64,000 nucleotides of DNA from a virus, in IMG/VR virus record IMGVR_UViG_3300042569_002050, positions 62,001-126,000 of that record. One strand, given 5' to 3'. The translations under genes were made by a program, and so were the position numbers. Positions 7,069-63,726 of the stretch are shown here, one piece after another. The notes under the pieces were generated by a model. That model searched no databases, was not told the origin of the DNA, and saw nothing but the letters and a program-made list of their open reading frames with translations. How positions within the stretch are numbered: the first letter of the stretch is position 1; the number at the start of each line of letters is the position of its first letter.

Positions 7069-7078
7069 TATATTTATA
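7069..7078 (+). promoter_or_regulatory. late-type promoter box upstream of hsp20
   Basis: TATATTTATA follows the clamp stop with no clear -33 element. It is one of about a dozen such boxes found before late and special genes. The leader to the hsp20 ATG at 7148 is about 65 nt and contains the 7082-7100 repeat. Confidence 0.4.
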
Positions 7079-7081
7079 TTT

Positions 7082-7100
7082 AAGATACTTGACAGGTCTT
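7082..7100 (+). repeat. inverted repeat arm 1, upstream of hsp20
   Basis: AAGATACTTGACAGGTCTT is repeated in reverse complement at 7751-7768 with only one base missing. Each arm lies upstream of a chaperone gene, so it may be a shared operator; the arm itself is weakly palindromic (AAGA...TCTT). Confidence 0.7.
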
Positions 7101-7147
7101 ATTTATTTATCAACCGCTTACCTTAGGGAAGCACAAACGTTTAAAAA

Positions 7148-7738
7148 ATGACAAAAACAAACTTTGGGGATGTCCCTGTTACCTTGCAAGGAACAACAAC
7201 ATCCGCCGTAATTAACACAACAGGAGGAAATTCAAGCCTTACATTTGGTTATTCACCAGCTATTGGTACCACTACACTTTTCAATAGTGGTAACTCATTA
7301 ATTCAACCAACATACGATGACTTTTGGAACTTCAATGAGGAGTTTGATTTGCTGTGGAAGTCTTTCTTCGATAGCAATGCAGGTTATCGTCCTATTAAGG
7401 AAAAAGTAGCAAGTATTCCTTGCGATATTCAAGAAACAGAAAATGGATTGCTGATAGAAATTGCAGCAGTAGGTCTAGATAAAGAAGATCTGGACATAAT
7501 TGTGGATTCAGAAACACTACGTGTGGCTTATCGTAAATCAGATAAGGAAGAAGAAGCAGAAAAGAACGAGTATAGATACTTGTTAAGAACAATTAAAAAA
7601 GCAAGTTTTGATATTGGGATTAAAATCTCAAGTAAGTATGACTTACAGAAAATGGATGCTAAACTAGAAAAAGGATTGTTAATTTTGGAAATTCCATTTG
7701 CAAAAGAAAACAAACCTAAGAAAGTAACCATCAAATAG
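7148..7738 (+). CDS. small heat-shock protein, Hsp20/alpha-crystallin family
   Basis: Hsp20 proteins form ATP-independent oligomers that hold unfolding proteins. Residues about 80-195 form the alpha-crystallin domain: VASIPCDIQETENGLLIEI, then GLDKEDLDIIV, and near the end KLEKGLLILEIPFA, which contains the conserved G-x-L motif. The N-terminal 75 residues are polar and rich in Thr, Gly and Asn. It is followed directly by groES and groEL, so the phage carries a compact chaperone set, and inverted repeat arms flank this gene. Confidence 0.9.
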   Translation: MTKTNFGDVPVTLQGTTTSAVINTTGGNSSLTFGYSPAIGTTTLFNSGNSLIQPTYDDFWNFNEEFDLLWKSFFDSNAGYRPIKEKVASIPCDIQETENGLLIEIAAVGLDKEDLDIIVDSETLRVAYRKSDKEEEAEKNEYRYLLRTIKKASFDIGIKISSKYDLQKMDAKLEKGLLILEIPFAKENKPKKVTIK

Positions 7739-7750
7739 TTTTGAAAACCG

Positions 7751-7768
7751 AAGACCTGTCAGTATCTT
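7751..7768 (+). repeat. inverted repeat arm 2, upstream of groES
   Basis: AAGACCTGTCAGTATCTT is the reverse complement of the 7082-7100 arm apart from one missing base. It lies in the 55-nt gap between hsp20 and groES. Confidence 0.7.
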
Positions 7769-7793: not shown

Positions 7794-8084
7794 ATGAAAA
7801 TAAATGCGTTGCATAATCACGTTGTGATTAAACAAGATGAAAATCAAGAACAAAAGTATGGTAACATTGTTGTTGCCGATCTAGGTAAAGAAAAACCACT
7901 ACAAGGTGAAATTGTAGAAATTGGTCCTGGTAGATATACAGAAACAGGGGCTTTTGTTCCAACAACACTTAAAGTAGGGGACGTTGTGGTATTTCCTTCA
8001 TTTGGGGGTACTAAAATTACTGTTGATGATGTAGAATACATTATTATGAAGGAATCAGATTTGTTAATTGTATTAGAAAAATAA
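7794..8084 (+). CDS. groES: co-chaperonin GroES
   Basis: The 96-residue protein matches GroES in length and layout: an N-terminal strand INALHNHVVIKQDE, the mobile-loop region with YGNIVVAD, then GEIVEIGPGRY and a C-terminal VEYIIMKESDLLIVLE. It caps GroEL during folding. The next gene is groEL, three bases downstream, so the pair is co-transcribed. The mobile loop is EQKYGNIVVADLG in place of the usual Gly-Ile-Val-Leu form, which may tune binding to the phage's own GroEL. Confidence 0.93.
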   Translation: MKINALHNHVVIKQDENQEQKYGNIVVADLGKEKPLQGEIVEIGPGRYTETGAFVPTTLKVGDVVVFPSFGGTKITVDDVEYIIMKESDLLIVLEK

Positions 8085-8087
8085 ACT

Positions 8088-9713
8088 ATGAGTAAAATAA
8101 TCAGTTTCGAACGCGAAGCAAAAGAAAAACTACAGGAAGGTGTAGACAAGGTCTACAAAGCTGTAGCAACAACAATGGGTCCCTTCGGACGTAATGTATT
8201 AATTGAAAAAGAATATGGTCAAGTATCATCTACTAAAGATGGTGTTACTGTAGCTAAATCAATTACATTGGAAGACCCAATTGAAAACATGGCTGCAACT
8301 GTTATTAAACAAGCAGCATCAAAGACAGTTGATCAAGCAGGGGATGGAACAACTACATCTACTGTACTAGCTCATTCAATTGCAATTCAAGCATTACAAG
8401 CAACATCTTATGCTTCAACAAATGCCACTCAGGTAAAGCGTGGTATTGAACAGGCTGTTAAGAAAGTAGTTGCTGAATTGAAAGCAATGTCTGTGGATAT
8501 TACAGATGAAGCACAAATTAAACAAATTGCTACATTATCAGCTAATGGTGATGAAGAAATTGGTAATATTGTAGCTACAGCTATTGATAAAGTAGGTAGA
8601 GATGGAGTAGTAACTGTAGAGAAATCTCGTACAGGTGAGACAACATTGGAAGTTGTTGAAGGTTTGCAATTTGATAGAGGTTATAAATCACCTTACTTTG
8701 TAACCGATAACAATTCAATGCAAGTTACATTAAATGACCCTTATATTTTAATTTATGATAAGCGTATTAGTGCGGTTAAGGATTTACTTCCATTACTTGA
8801 ACGTGTTTCTACTGAAAGTAAATCTCTTTTAATTATTGCTGAAGACATTGATGGTGAAGCGTTAGCTACATTAGTAATGAATAAAGCAAGAGGTGTATTA
8901 CAAGTATGTGCTGTTAAAGCTCCTGAATTTGGAGATCGTAGAACAGCAATTTTGGAAGACATTGCTACATTAACTGGTGGACAAGTAGTTTCATCTGAAA
9001 AAGGTATGACTTTAGCTAAACTAGATATTAACTGGTTAGGTAAATCTAGAGTTGCTACTGTTGGTAAAGATACTACTACAATCGTTGATGGTAAAGGTAA
9101 TGTTGATAAAATTGAAGAGCGTATCTTGAATATTAAAGCTCAAATGGACAAACCAGATACTACACCTTATGAAATTGAAAAATATCAAGAGCGTTTAGGT
9201 AAAATGGTAGGTGGAGTTGCTATCATCAATGTTGGTGGTGGTAATGAAATTGAGATCGAAGAGAAAAAAGATCGTATTGATGATGCTTTACAAGCAACTA
9301 AAGCCGCTCTTGAAGAAGGTATCTTACCAGGTGCAGGTGTAGCATTACTAAATGCTAGAAAAACATTATTAGCTGATTTAGATAAAAAAGAAGACATAGC
9401 TAAAGGTGCTGAAATTGTATTTCAAGCTTGTGCGGCTCCATTTAAACAAATTCTAAAAAATGCTGGTGAAGATGCTACTGAATGGTGGATAAAAATTATA
9501 AATTCTGATTCATCATCTGTACCAGATTTAACAAATAATACAGTAGTAGACGCGTTTGAATTAGGTATCATTGATCCAACTAAGGTAGTACGTTGCGCCC
9601 TAGAAAATGCAGCATCAGCTGCTGTTACATTACTAATGACTGAATGTGTTGTTCATGAAAAACCTAATGAAAAGAAGGATGACATGGGTGGTATGGCAGG
9701 ATTTGGTATGTAA
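8088..9713 (+). CDS. groEL: chaperonin GroEL
   Basis: The full-length 541-residue chaperonin has MGPFGRNVLIEKEYG and TKDGVTVAKSI in the ATP pocket, GDGTTTSTVLA near residue 84, and a GGM-type tail (DDMGGMAGFGM). All three regions (equatorial, intermediate, apical) are present with no break. Phage chaperonins are known in large myophages and are thought to fold virion or replication proteins. The codon use follows the rest of the genome, so acquisition was not recent. Confidence 0.97.
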   Translation: MSKIISFEREAKEKLQEGVDKVYKAVATTMGPFGRNVLIEKEYGQVSSTKDGVTVAKSITLEDPIENMAATVIKQAASKTVDQAGDGTTTSTVLAHSIAIQALQATSYASTNATQVKRGIEQAVKKVVAELKAMSVDITDEAQIKQIATLSANGDEEIGNIVATAIDKVGRDGVVTVEKSRTGETTLEVVEGLQFDRGYKSPYFVTDNNSMQVTLNDPYILIYDKRISAVKDLLPLLERVSTESKSLLIIAEDIDGEALATLVMNKARGVLQVCAVKAPEFGDRRTAILEDIATLTGGQVVSSEKGMTLAKLDINWLGKSRVATVGKDTTTIVDGKGNVDKIEERILNIKAQMDKPDTTPYEIEKYQERLGKMVGGVAIINVGGGNEIEIEEKKDRIDDALQATKAALEEGILPGAGVALLNARKTLLADLDKKEDIAKGAEIVFQACAAPFKQILKNAGEDATEWWIKIINSDSSSVPDLTNNTVVDAFELGIIDPTKVVRCALENAASAAVTLLMTECVVHEKPNEKKDDMGGMAGFGM

Positions 9714-9722
9714 ATTTAATAC

Positions 9723-10088
9723 ATGAAAAAGTTATACTTAGACGATATCCGCACCCCTCAAACAGAGGGGTGGGTTATCGTTCGTAACTACGATGATTTC
9801 GTAGCATGGATTAGATTAAATGGTGTTCCTGATGAAGTATCATTCGACCATGATTTGGGAGAAGATGTTGCTAAAGAAAAAGTAGAGGCAGGAATGTCTA
9901 AACGTAAAGCAAGAGAGCAAAAGAAGGAAACTAAAAGTGGTTATGACGCTGCAATATGGTTAGGACGACATTGTCTGTTAACCGATACTCCTTACCCAAA
10001 ATGGAATTGTCATTCTGCAAATCCTGTTGGTAAGGCAAATATAGAAGCATACATTAACAATGTAATTAAACATCAAAATCAGTTATGA
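9723..10088 (+). CDS. cyclic-phosphate-processing receiver-like (cREC) protein
   Basis: The 121-residue protein starts KKLYLDDIRTP, has VSFDHDLGED near residue 40 and ends with NCHSANPVGKANIEAYI. That set matches the small phage and bacterial domain described as a receiver-like fold linked to cyclic-phosphate RNA ends (cREC_REC). The D-D near the start and the H-D-L-G and H-S-A-N-P-V-G motifs would be the active site. The role in infection is unknown; RNA-end repair is an inference. It overlaps the clamp loader gene by four bases. Confidence 0.75.
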   Translation: MKKLYLDDIRTPQTEGWVIVRNYDDFVAWIRLNGVPDEVSFDHDLGEDVAKEKVEAGMSKRKAREQKKETKSGYDAAIWLGRHCLLTDTPYPKWNCHSANPVGKANIEAYINNVIKHQNQL

Positions 10089-22175: not shown

Positions 22176-22247
22176 GCTCAGTTCGACTAAGGGTTAGGTC
22201 ACATCCCTTTCACGGATGTAATACGGGTTCGAATCCCGTACTGAGTA
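22176..22247 (+). tRNA. tRNA-Glu (anticodon UUC)
   Basis: The acceptor stem GCTCAGT pairs with ACTGAGT (one G-U). The D stem is GAC/GTC, the anticodon stem CATCC/GGATG frames CTTTCAC with anticodon TTC at 22209-22211, and the T arm is ACGGG-TTCGAAT-CCCGT. No CCA is encoded. Confidence 0.9.
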
Positions 22248-22262
22248 CAAAGTGGATAAAAT

Positions 22263-22298
22263 GTGCAGTAACCACAGGGAAGCTAGCTCCCACTGCAC
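22263..22298 (+). other. structured spacer hairpin between tRNA genes
   Basis: GTGCAGT pairs with ACTGCAC, and inside it GGGA pairs with TCCC around the palindrome GCTAGC. It may guide processing of the tRNA precursor. The ACCACAGG plus GCTAGCT words recur inside the tRNA-like RNA at 22852-23010. Confidence 0.6.
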
Positions 22299-22302
22299 TC
22301 CA

Positions 22303-22387
22303 GGAAAGATGGCAGAGTGGTTGAATGCACCGGTCTTGAAAACCGGCATACTGAAAGGTATCTGGGGTTCGAATCCCTGTCTTTCCG
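22303..22387 (+). tRNA. tRNA-Ser (anticodon UGA)
   Basis: The acceptor is GGAAAGA/TCTTTCC with discriminator G. The anticodon arm CCGGT-CTTGAAA-ACCGG gives TGA. A long variable arm (ATACTGAAAGGTAT) makes it class II, as expected for serine. Confidence 0.92.
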
Positions 22388-22396
22388 CATATTAAT

Positions 22397-22468
22397 GCTC
22401 CTAAAGCATTGCAGGCGATGCGCATGACTTGTAATCATGATAACTTGGTTCGATTCCGAGTGGGAGCT
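22397..22468 (+). tRNA. tRNA-Thr (anticodon UGU)
   Basis: The acceptor is GCTCCTA/TGGGAGC. The anticodon arm CATGA-CTTGTAA-TCATG gives TGT, and the T arm is CTTGG-TTCGATT-CCGAG. Discriminator T. Confidence 0.9.
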
Positions 22469-22474
22469 CAACAA

Positions 22475-22548
22475 GGGCCTGTAGCTCAATCGGTTAGAGC
22501 GGCACACTCATAATGTGAAGGTAGTAGGTTCGATTCCTACCAGGCCCA
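22475..22548 (+). tRNA. tRNA-Met (anticodon CAU)
   Basis: The acceptor is GGGCCTG/CAGGCCC with discriminator A, and the D arm GCTCAATCGGTTAGAGC is canonical. The loop CTCATAA gives CAT. One anticodon-stem pair (G-A) is mismatched. The elongator Met type fits the acceptor sequence; an Ile tRNA with modified C34 is the alternative. Confidence 0.88.
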
Positions 22549-22589
22549 CGTGCAACGTTTATTTGACATAAGGAAATTTAGAAAAAATG

Positions 22590-22621
22590 TTGGACGGGCA
22601 AAAAGAAAATTGTAAATTAAC
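22590..22621 (+). promoter_or_regulatory. host-type promoter
   Basis: TTGG at 22590, 19 bp, TAAATTAAC at 22613, just before the ATG at 22627. The TTGGACGGGCA start matches the accessory-region promoters. Confidence 0.45.
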
Positions 22622-22626
22622 CACAT

Positions 22627-22836
22627 ATGAAAAAAGAATTATACGACATGCTTATGGCTTCAGCAATAGCTGACAAAACAAAAGCTCTATTAACTTTGGA
22701 TCTATTGTCTTATCACGCCGCTGGTATTGGTGATCATTCAACAAAAGACTTCTACAATAACGCTGAAGAAGCGCTTACAATGTTAGTTGATGCTGAAGAT
22801 AAAATTGCCACGCTTGAAAGACATTTCAAACAATAG
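22627..22836 (+). CDS. hypothetical protein, 69 aa
   Basis: A helical, slightly acidic protein (MKKELYDMLMASAIADKTK) placed between tRNA genes behind its own promoter. No domain recognised. Confidence 0.65.
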   Translation: MKKELYDMLMASAIADKTKALLTLDLLSYHAAGIGDHSTKDFYNNAEEALTMLVDAEDKIATLERHFKQ

Positions 22837-22851
22837 TTATTAAGCTGGAAT

Positions 22852-23010
22852 TGTAGGGTGGTGAAAAGGCGTACGCTTGGCAGACATGCCCTCCCGTCTC
22901 GAGGGTGCGGAGTTCGAGATAGACAAATGATAATGGGTTGACCACAGGCTAGCTAGCAAAAGTGTCATTTGTTGAATCGCCGCGTGGAGGTTCGAATCCT
23001 TCCCCTACAG
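22852..23010 (+). ncRNA. tRNA-like RNA with oversized variable region (159 nt)
   Basis: A perfect 7-bp acceptor stem (TGTAGGG at 22852, CCCTACA at 23003) and a good T arm (GGAGG-TTCGAAT-CCTTC, 22986-23002) enclose far more than a tRNA. A Leu/Ser-like D arm starts GTG at 22861 and holds a small extra hairpin (22868-22877). A 5-bp arm CCCTC/GAGGG at 22889-22905 has a 7-nt loop CCGTCTC, which would give anticodon GTC but lacks U33 and a purine at 37. About 80 nt follow, foldable as one long arm (GCGG/CCGC and ACAAATGA/TCATTTGT). It could be a giant-variable-arm tRNA, an interrupted tRNA, or a tRNA mimic. Confidence 0.6.
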
Positions 23011-23013
23011 CAA

Positions 23014-23085
23014 TCGTTCGAACGTGGAACGACGAAGACAGAGTAACTCCTCTGGCAACATGAAACTCTCCGTATCGTATGACGG
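23014..23085 (+). other. three consecutive hairpins between RNA genes
   Basis: TCGTTC/GAACGA (23014-23032, 7-nt loop), CAGAG/CTCTG (23039-23054) and CCGT/ACGG (23070-23085) follow one another in the gap before tRNA-Leu. No open frame fits. They may be processing signals or another small RNA. Confidence 0.5.
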
Positions 23086-23125
23086 CGATGTTGGCAACTC
23101 ATAGGGTAATACAAAAGTTGCACAT

Positions 23126-23209
23126 GCCGGGGTGGTGGAATAGGTAGACACGCAAGACTTAAAATCTTGTTCGCCAACGCGAGTGCGGGTTCGATTCCCG
23201 CTCCTGGTA
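23126..23209 (+). tRNA. tRNA-Leu (anticodon UAA)
   Basis: The acceptor is GCCGGGG/TCCTGGT with three G-U pairs. The anticodon arm CAAGA-CTTAAAA-TCTTG gives TAA. A long variable arm (CGCCAACGCGAG) and the T arm GCGGG-TTCGATT-CCCGC make it a standard class II tRNA. Confidence 0.92.
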
Positions 23210-23217
23210 CAATAATT

Positions 23218-23541
23218 ATGGATATGGCCTGTTGGGTATTAATGTTAGAAAGTAATCGTCAATTCCTTCAAATGATGAGGGATAGGGATAGTGATTTAAT
23301 ACTTAAAATGGTTAGATGTGTTCTTAGTGCTCATAAACGAGGTAAAGATCGAATAGATATATTTGATATTACATTCAAAGACACAAGTGGGATGATATTT
23401 AACATTGAGAAATCACAATACAAAGAATTGTTAAGTAATTGTATGGATGATTTGATCAAGTTAGAAGAATATGAATTGTGTGCTGATATTCAAAAAATAT
23501 TAGAAGGCAAAAAACGAAAGAAAAAAGCAGAAGTTATTTAA
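23218..23541 (+). CDS. small phage protein with UVR-like C-terminal motif, paralogue 2
   Basis: Starting at MDMACWVLMLESNRQF, just after tRNA-Leu, the 107-residue protein ends LIKLEEYELCADIQKIL plus a basic tail. It shares its layout with the protein at 20297. An in-frame ATG inside the tRNA gene is rejected as the start. It lies between a tRNA and tmRNA, so a role in RNA metabolism is possible but not shown. Confidence 0.75.
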   Translation: MDMACWVLMLESNRQFLQMMRDRDSDLILKMVRCVLSAHKRGKDRIDIFDITFKDTSGMIFNIEKSQYKELLSNCMDDLIKLEEYELCADIQKILEGKKRKKKAEVI

Positions 23542-23546
23542 CACAT

Positions 23547-23937
23547 GGGGGTGCCTGGTTTTGACAGGTGCGATGAGTTGGTATAGTTGATGCAAGCCGG
23601 GTTAGATGGAAATCCGTAAATACCTATCGAACAATAAATGACGTAGAATTATCTACAATGACCTTCGAAGATGCTATGGCATTCGTTGGTGCGGATTACG
23701 CAGTAGCTGCCTAGTCCAACTCGGGTCGGTGCACATATAACCTAGGAACAGAAGTGCCTACAAAGGGGGTCTTAGGGTGGAGCCCTCATAAAATAATTCC
23801 ACAACCAGGTAATTTGGAAGTATGATTCCCACATACATCAAACTTCATATTTTGTTAATTTAGAAAAATTAACTAAGCTTGTGAACGAGATTTATTAAAT
23901 CCGTATCTGGACAAGGGTTCGACTCCCTTCACCTCCA
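23547..23937 (+). ncRNA. ssrA: transfer-messenger RNA (tmRNA)
   Basis: The 5' end GGGGGTGCCTGGTTTTGAC and the 3' end AAGGGTTCGACTCCCTT then CACCTCC are the tRNA-like domain of a one-piece tmRNA; GGGGGTG pairs with CACCTCC (one G-U). The length, 391 nt, is normal. Inside, a short reading frame ends GADYAVAA with TAG at 23712. tmRNA rescues stalled ribosomes and tags the unfinished protein for degradation. It is encoded last in the tRNA cluster and followed by a strong terminator. The host surely has its own copy, so this phage copy could compete with it or change the tag. Confidence 0.93.
23688..23714 (+). other. tmRNA tag-peptide frame (probable GADYAVAA)
   Basis: GGT GCG GAT TAC GCA GTA GCT GCC TAG follows TTCGTT. 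Known Bacteroidetes tags start with Gly and end in ALAA or AMAA, so the Gly at 23688 is the likely resume codon; the exact resume point is inferred. The AVAA ending differs from the common ALAA. Confidence 0.65.
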
Positions 23938-23943
23938 CAATTT

Positions 23944-62608: not shown

Positions 62609-62656
62609 GAGTTTCCGGTTGCTATATTTATATGTAGCATAACCGGAAACTCTTTT
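62609..62656 (+). terminator. terminator hairpin with a late-type promoter box in the loop
   Basis: GAGTTTCCGGTT (62609-62620) pairs perfectly with AACCGGAAACTC (62641-62652), then TTTT. The loop contains TATATTTATA at 62623 flanked by GCTA and TAGC. Confidence 0.75.
62623..62632 (+). promoter_or_regulatory. late-type promoter box inside the hairpin loop
   Basis: TATATTTATA, 36 nt before the ATG at 62659. Starting here would leave the 3' stem arm unpaired in the new RNA. Confidence 0.5.
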
Positions 62657-62658
62657 AC

Positions 62659-63726
62659 ATGGCCGTATATAAATTATTCCCTGAAAAGGACGCAACAATT
62701 TTCTCATATTACCCTGCAGTTAATACAGGGATAGACGAGATTCTAGAAATTAGCACATTTGAAAGTGCATTCACAAATACAAGAGAATCTTCTAGAGCTC
62801 TTATTAAATTTTCAACAAGTGAAATAAGTGATATTATTTCAAATAAAGTGTCTGGAAGTAATTACAAAGCATATCTAAAACTATATTTAGCAAATGCTTC
62901 TGAAATCCCAGCAGATTATAGAATAATGTGTCACCCTATTTCAGGATCTTGGGATGTTGGTACAGGTCGTTTAGCAAATTCTCCATCTACAACAGATGGT
63001 GTAAGTTGGAGTAATAAAACTGTAGTAAACACTTGGATAAGTGGAGGTGGTGATTGGCATACAACCCCAACATCTTCTCAATCATTTACTAATAGTGATG
63101 AAAAAGACATTGAAATAGATGTTACATCAACTGTAGCTGCGTTTTATGCTTATGAAACAAATCCATTTGCTTCTGTAAAAATACAAAATGAGGGTTTTAT
63201 ATTAAAACATTCAAGTAGTATAGAATTTTCAACAGGAAGTTCACCATTCGAGTTAAAATATTTTTCATCAGATACTCATACTATTTATCCTCCTTGTTTG
63301 GAAATTAGATGGAATGATAGTACATTCGTTACTGGTAGTTTAACTGTAACTAATAATCATAAAGCTGTTGTTTCTTTAAAGAATAACAAATCTGAATTTC
63401 AACAAGATTCGGTTAATAAATTTAGATTAGGAGTTAGAGATCAATATCCACCAAGAACATTTAATACTAACCAATTGTATATAACTGGGTCTAAGTTATT
63501 ACCTAGTTCATCATATTGGGCTATTAAAGATTTAGATACAGATGAATGGGTAGTTGATTTTGATACTAATTATACTAAAATAAGTGCTGATCCTACTTCA
63601 AGTTTCTTTACAGTTCATATGAATGGATTACAACCTGAAAGGTTCTACAAGATTTTGATTAAATCAGTAATTGATGGTTCAACTATTGTATTTGATGAAG
63701 ATTATATTTTTAAAGTAATTAGATAA
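62659..63726 (+). CDS. virion protein with DNRLRE-like domain
   Basis: The first 200 residues (YKLFPEKDATIFSYYPAVNT, later IDVTSTVAAFYAYETN and PCLEIRWNDS) have the strand and motif order of DNRLRE-like beta domains found in tail or adhesin proteins. The rest is beta-rich. 355 residues. Probably a baseplate or tail component. Confidence 0.75.
   Translation: MAVYKLFPEKDATIFSYYPAVNTGIDEILEISTFESAFTNTRESSRALIKFSTSEISDIISNKVSGSNYKAYLKLYLANASEIPADYRIMCHPISGSWDVGTGRLANSPSTTDGVSWSNKTVVNTWISGGGDWHTTPTSSQSFTNSDEKDIEIDVTSTVAAFYAYETNPFASVKIQNEGFILKHSSSIEFSTGSSPFELKYFSSDTHTIYPPCLEIRWNDSTFVTGSLTVTNNHKAVVSLKNNKSEFQQDSVNKFRLGVRDQYPPRTFNTNQLYITGSKLLPSSSYWAIKDLDTDEWVVDFDTNYTKISADPTSSFFTVHMNGLQPERFYKILIKSVIDGSTIVFDEDYIFKVIR

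Follow-up and report, generated by a model that had tools for sequence, protein, structure and literature searches.

The hsp20 locus and its transcript

The window, which is the whole 64-kb stretch of viral DNA analysed here, encodes hsp20, groES and groEL in succession within a phage region that also holds DNA polymerase, clamp and clamp-loader genes (Table 1). A preliminary description had reported near-identical arms facing each other before hsp20 and before groES. Both arms are real and their coordinates were confirmed, the sole difference being a 1-nt insertion (an additional T in arm 1) without any substitution. Arm 2 begins about 12 nt 3′ of the hsp20 stop. In shuffled sequence, 0.02 occurrences of the 19-mer are expected per 64 kb when as many as three mismatches are allowed, and a search of the 132-kb phage record, which the description had suggested, returned no copies beyond the two arms, the GACAGGTCTT core occurring with zero mismatches at just these two sites. 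When the 5′ flank of each gene was scored against its 3′ flank in a strand-symmetric scan, hsp20 ranked first among the 107 genes of the window (30.0, with the next gene at 21.5 and a median of 12.0). Elsewhere in the window, a PF20274 cyclic-phosphate processing receiver-domain protein is encoded after groEL (9723-10088), and five tRNA genes and one tmRNA gene lie at 22176-23940.

Table 1 Features of the hsp20 locus in window coordinates.
Feature	Position	Strand	Remarks
Promoter-like box TATATTTATA	7069..7078	+	directly 5′ of arm 1
P1 (arm 1 hairpin), UAAGA-UACUUGACAGG-UCUUA	7081..7101	+	stem 7081-7085/7097-7101, loop 7086-7096
Arm 1, AAGATACTTGACAGGTCTT	7082-7100	+	
P2 hairpin, GCUU-A(bulge)-CC-[UUAG]-GG-AAGC	7116..7132	+	between P1 and start codon; conserved AACC and CACAAA flanks
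hsp20, small heat-shock protein, 196 aa	7148..7738	+	PF00011, E=3.2e-9; inside the predicted long-range pairing
Arm 2, AAGACCTGTCAGTATCTT (reverse complement AAGATACTGACAGGTCTT)	7751-7768	+	in hsp20 3′ UTR
Loop-complementary portion of arm 2 (anti-loop), CCUGUCAGUA	7755-7764	+	
groES	7794..8084	+	PF00166 Cpn10, E=3e-26; 3′ of the putative closed loop, not in it
groEL	8088..9713	+	57-90% identity to GroEL of related viral contigs; not in the putative closed loop

The promoter-like box is present in seven copies in the window (7069, 13104, 19334, 34389, 37531, 50998 and 62623), all seven on the plus strand, intergenic and ahead of plus-strand genes. The copy at 62623 lies inside an inverted repeat, GAGTTTCCGGTT...AACCGGAAACTC (62610-62660), ahead of a gene at 62659. 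Among the 152 hsp20 loci described below, a box of similar sequence precedes the arm in 128, mostly 5-19 nt from the arm core. Since the box adjoins the arm, the transcript start would fall no more than a few bases from arm 1, at P1 or immediately ahead of it. Consensus and intrinsic terminators had no plus-strand match in the hsp20-groES interval, arm 2 included; arm 2 was thus rejected as an intrinsic terminator, and the three genes are probably co-transcribed. In the predicted fold of the 712-nt hsp20 transcript, the arms and P2 are paired (z=-5.2 against shuffles), with the arm 1-arm 2 pairing appearing in both the minimum-free-energy and the centroid folds.

Two predicted hairpins in the hsp20 5′ UTR

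Arm 1 coincides with P1, whose loop and stem strands are both complementary to arm 2 in the window. Across the family, P1 is a local hairpin with a 9-11-nt loop. Its stem varies (GAGA/UCUC, AGGA/UCCU, AAGG/CCUU, GCAA/UUGC, ACGA/UCGU, AUCG/CGAU, AACG/CGUU) without a corresponding change in arm 2, and its loop remains complementary to arm 2. Both partners of a kissing loop would be hairpins: P1 stems with 8-11-nt loops are found above dinucleotide shuffles in 36 representatives (p=0.002); arm 2 forms a hairpin in the window's clade, but as a conserved feature this is not supported family-wide (p=0.6 against shuffles), and a symmetric kissing loop is at most a candidate for the family as a whole. 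P1 is statistically weaker than P2 or the long-range pairing.

P2 lies close to the start codon. In 36 divergent sequences, 216 of 216 cells are paired (100%), and four of the six pairs have changed on both sides. The covariation score is 0.785, compared with 0.175 in shuffled controls (0/500) and at most 0.203 when the element is slid, these covariation counts being only partly corrected for shared ancestry. The loop is of the UUAG, UUCG or GNRA type and the bulged A is conserved. A covariance model, R1, gives a single strong match in the window. Each tested genome with hsp20 has one strong P2, and those lacking hsp20 have none; G011 has two P2 copies near opposite ends of its record, which may be a terminal repeat. 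Three MAG contigs outside model building have P2 by the model and arms by eye. Rfam has no family at the element.

Two variations of this region were also observed. At six loci (L132, L140, L147, L162, L212 and L233), P2 is seemingly replaced or reshaped to a CUUAGGAGG-like sequence that resembles a Shine-Dalgarno sequence right before the start codon. Cyanophages and a marine virus (L244, L247, L254, L255 and L256) have, some 30-50 nt ahead of hsp20, a hairpin with a bulge, CC/GG pairs and a loop that is either UUCG or GAAA; these hairpins resemble the P2 layout and are unmatched by R1, and the four cyanophage loci that were scored are without arms. An older relative of P2 may exist in T4-like phages.

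The arms travel with hsp20

Relatives were gathered by one GroEL scan of viral contigs and two Hsp20 scans. The resulting sample comprises 152 distinct hsp20 loci with both flanks, and arms were called at a flank inverted-repeat score of at least 20. Arms are present in 149 of these loci; absence of the repeat from close relatives that keep the genes, named in the preliminary description as the result that would speak against it, did not occur. The distance from the end of arm 1 to the start codon has a median of 53 nt, and arm 2 follows the stop by 2-18 nt (median 8). L192, L198 and L236 received wrong ORF ends in the automatic scans and hence low scores.

Rearranged loci separate the arms from the neighbouring genes. 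Where extra genes lie between clamp and hsp20 (L029, L041), the arms are still with hsp20, and where genes are inserted between hsp20 and groES (L041, L044, L047, L049), arm 2 is still immediately behind hsp20. In relatives without hsp20 (L007, L012, L020, L034, L046 and others), clamp-groES-groEL is retained and the promoter-like box is frequently present too, but the arms are absent. The earlier reading had the repeat shared by the hsp20 and groES upstream regions; in relatives the arms go with hsp20, not with groES. Outside the sampled family, none of eight loci from cyanophages, a Vibrio phage, a pelagiphage and a Methylophilales phage has arms around hsp20 that exceed the shuffled maximum. 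A generic Hsp20 sequence served as query solely for locating phage hsp20 records. L248, a homologous MAG contig, shows no visible arms, and inspection by eye gives a hairpin resembling P2 that the model missed.

Two kinds of hsp20 occur, one of about 147 aa and one of about 196 aa with a longer N-terminus, which are about 45% identical. They swap between phages with neighbour genes that are mostly >90% identical (L002/L004 against L005 and the window), and the arms differ accordingly. In distant loci (for example L066, L071 and L085), the interval from arm 2 to groES holds a conserved TTCGTATATT-like box, which may be a separate groES promoter in that clade.

The host probably belongs to the Flavobacteria. 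Three MAG contigs carry the same Hsp20 family, two labelled Flavobacteriaceae and one merely 'bacterium'; a fourth, in which no arms can be seen, bears the label Pelagibacter. Among isolates, the nearest GroEL is that of Flavobacterium phage immuto (58%), which has no annotated hsp20 ahead of groES. A tblastn search returned no isolate phage carrying the Hsp20 of the window, and there was no real DNA match.

Complementarity is kept through sequence turnover

The arms of deep relatives are unrelated in sequence, as in CGACTCGAGAGCG/CGCTCTCGAGTTG (L064), CTTTAGGGAGC/GCTCCCTAAAG (L066) and TGCGGGTCGGCC/GGCCGGCCCGCA (L212). Cognate duplexes of the distant clade nevertheless have predicted energies of -28 to -38 kcal/mol, against about -15 kcal/mol for non-cognate combinations. 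Among 14 arm clusters, 12 favour the cognate partner in each direction, the two lowest-scoring representatives being L198 and L236, with their wrong ORF ends. As a control for relatedness, we compared 32 independent locus pairs with Hsp20 proteins 70-95% identical and different arms: the mean score is 29.5 for cognate and 16.8 for crossed arms, and both cognates beat both crosses in 28 of the 32. Between nearest neighbours, compensated double changes and broken pairs stand at 87:61. Complete arm replacement is seen even between phages whose Hsp20 proteins are 90-95% identical, and at 94-95% in some pairs (L085/L086, L138/L148 and similar ones), so that turnover is quicker for the RNA element than for the protein.

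A DNA site would accumulate G.T and A.C mismatches equally, whereas an RNA made from the plus strand tolerates G.U alone. With a count that scores the two mismatches alike, G.T (G.U in RNA) exceeds A.C in imperfect pairs by 150:63 overall and by 77:34 in the cores. The nominal p values for this excess (2e-9 and 5e-5) are overstated, since the loci are related and all but the cluster-reduced counts treat relatives as independent; with one member per cluster the ratio is about 21:12, in the same direction in 200 of 200 resamplings. The excess of G.U over A.C suggests pairing in the coding-strand RNA, and points to a pairing that acts at the RNA level. Conserved, compensated complementarity therefore links both UTRs of the one hsp20 mRNA, and its wobble is strand-specific, as for RNA-level pairing.

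A probable closed hsp20 messenger

The preliminary description had offered two readings of the repeat, and its second one, with hsp20 looped out by arms that pair in the transcript, is strongly supported by complementarity that survives turnover, by the preference for G.U over A.C and by arms that follow hsp20. We are highly confident that the inverted repeat belongs to the hsp20 message as an RNA feature, in which the P1 loop pairs with a 3′ anti-loop; this confidence covers the RNA pairing alone, function being graded separately. Comparison across loci strongly supports the two hairpins P1 and P2, the complementarity over long range and the attachment of all three to hsp20. The hsp20 messenger probably forms a closed loop by which hsp20 is controlled or protected.

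We propose a model in which P1, the 5′-UTR hairpin, would form first and be invaded by arm 2 once hsp20 has been transcribed. The 9-11-nt P1 loop, usually with some of the stem, would pair with the anti-loop right behind the hsp20 stop, and this pairing would close the hsp20 cistron with P2 and the start codon inside and groES-groEL outside. The duplex might then shield the 5′ end, make a double-stranded processing site, or both, so that the stability and translation of the hsp20 mRNA would be set apart from those of the co-transcribed groESL. A ribosome terminating at the stop would disturb arm 2, and because arm 2 is only 2-18 nt past the stop, the pairing may report translation.

As to function, a role in hsp20 mRNA stability or processing is a reading to which we give slightly less than even weight, placing it somewhat above translational silencing because the duplex leaves the start region uncovered, unlike in icaR and hok. 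Silencing is the more tentative of the two: the same pairing would let arm 2 switch P1 and P2 and thereby silence or time hsp20 translation in the manner of hok or icaR, perhaps with Hsp20 bound to the 5′ UTR of its own message. As a variant of the pairing claim, it is compatible with our confidence in that claim. It would fit the mutual exclusion, in the stem, of P1 and the arm 1-arm 2 duplex, the position of P2 near the start codon with conserved flanks, and the repression by E. coli IbpA of its own mRNA via the 5′ UTR (PMC10474464). However, neither the start codon nor the A-rich stretch before it is paired in the predicted duplex, whereas the ribosome-binding region is covered in icaR and hok (PMC3868564); the phage 3′ element does not lie over that region, and P2 and the start region are outside the duplex.

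That heat opens the pairing, making it an RNA thermometer, is very improbable. hsp20 is a heat-shock gene with a structured 5′ UTR, and thermometers of small heat-shock genes are known in proteobacteria (PMC10474464), but the long-range helix is predicted to be paired with P of about 1.0 from 15 to 45 °C at 25 of 25 computed loci, a match to ROSE or any other Rfam thermometer was not found at E<=1 in seven loci, including that of the window itself (L055), nor at the gathering score in the window, and the duplex leaves the start region uncovered. The melting prediction covered 25 of 28 loci and the long-range helix alone; it argues against melting of that helix as a thermometer, and not against such a role for P2.

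The other reading in the preliminary description, in which the arms are two DNA operators through which one regulator controls transcription of hsp20 and groES, now carries little credence. Such operators would fit the imperfect palindrome of arm 1 and the joint change of both arms, as expected under a changing regulator. Yet the 132-kb genome has no additional site, arm 2 tracks the hsp20 stop rather than the groES start, the asymmetric centre is inverted between the arms in every case, the G.U excess is not predicted for DNA sites, and the arms vanish with hsp20 while groES stays. CIRCE, the HrcA operator, consists of TTAGCACTC-N9-GAGTGCTAA upstream of groES or hrcA; it has 0 matches in the 64-kb window even with up to three mismatches, in agreement with the earlier statement that the repeat is not CIRCE.

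Least credible of all is that the arms are a site of recombination, or terminal inverted repeats bounding an hsp20 cassette that is mobile: they do flank hsp20 on both sides, and hsp20 types and arms differ together between otherwise about 95% similar phages (L002/L004 and L005), but only hsp20 lies between them, with no transposase or recombinase, no target-site duplication was seen by eye, there is a single copy per genome, the arms begin after the promoter-like box and end 2-18 nt past the stop, G.U is frequent, the P1 stem and P2 covary internally, and the arms turn over faster than the protein.

Returning to closure of the hsp20 messenger by pairing, a bolder proposal that we consider rather unlikely is that the element represents a new class of cis-acting mRNA closure, in which a 5′ hairpin loop and a 3′ anti-loop would be renewed fast and completely with their complementarity kept. 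In this proposal, the renewal could reflect selection for private loops that avoid trans pairing with the mRNAs of co-infecting relatives, and P2 would join in to couple hsp20 translation to mRNA stability.

Comparison with known systems

To our knowledge, functional 5′-3′ UTR pairing in bacterial-type mRNAs has been limited to a few single genes and is poorly conserved among relatives. The phage element offers a deep comparative case, with 149 loci, unrelated arms that still pair and a perfectly covarying companion hairpin. This depth makes the idea testable through evolution and arm swaps. The element also adds a structured RNA without an Rfam match, and it suggests that phages regulate hsp20 apart from groESL inside one operon.

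The coat-protein operator hairpin of MS2 consists of a stem, a 5′-side bulged A, two pairs and a tetraloop. P2 has this layout, with a different loop and sequence, and because its loop alternates between UUAG, UUCG and GNRA, loop-specific protein recognition is unlikely.

Among small heat-shock genes, E. coli ibpA combines self-repression with an RNA thermometer in the 5′ UTR (PMC10474464). It shares a structured 5′ UTR with phage hsp20, but it is without a 3′ arm and its structure is another one, the phage element having no Rfam match. Nearest to the phage pairing are hok/AapA, icaR and hbs. The hok and AapA type I toxin mRNAs fold their 3′ end onto the 5′ region, a pairing that is kept by covariation and can be preceded by an early local hairpin (PMC6733600, PMC3868564). 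The long-distance fold-back kept by covariation is common to these mRNAs and phage hsp20; however, they encode toxins and involve antisense RNA and 3′-end processing, whereas the phage cargo is a chaperone with no known antisense RNA. In S. aureus icaR, the two UTRs of a single mRNA pair with each other and RNase III cuts the duplex (PMC3868564), much as the two UTRs of phage hsp20 would pair, but there a short UCCCC lies over the Shine-Dalgarno sequence, whereas the phage duplex would span at least 12 bp and would sit at the putative 5′ end, with P2 and the start codon lying further downstream. B. subtilis hbs likewise has a short helix, of 14 nt, joining both UTRs of one coding mRNA, for which a role in shielding the 5′ UTR against RNase Y is reported (Braun et al. 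2017, via PMC7821165). As described in that review, hbs is a single host gene whose 3′ UTR is unconserved among close relatives (PMC7821165); measured against this account, the phage pairing differs in being compensated across at least 149 loci and in using the loop of a 5′ hairpin.
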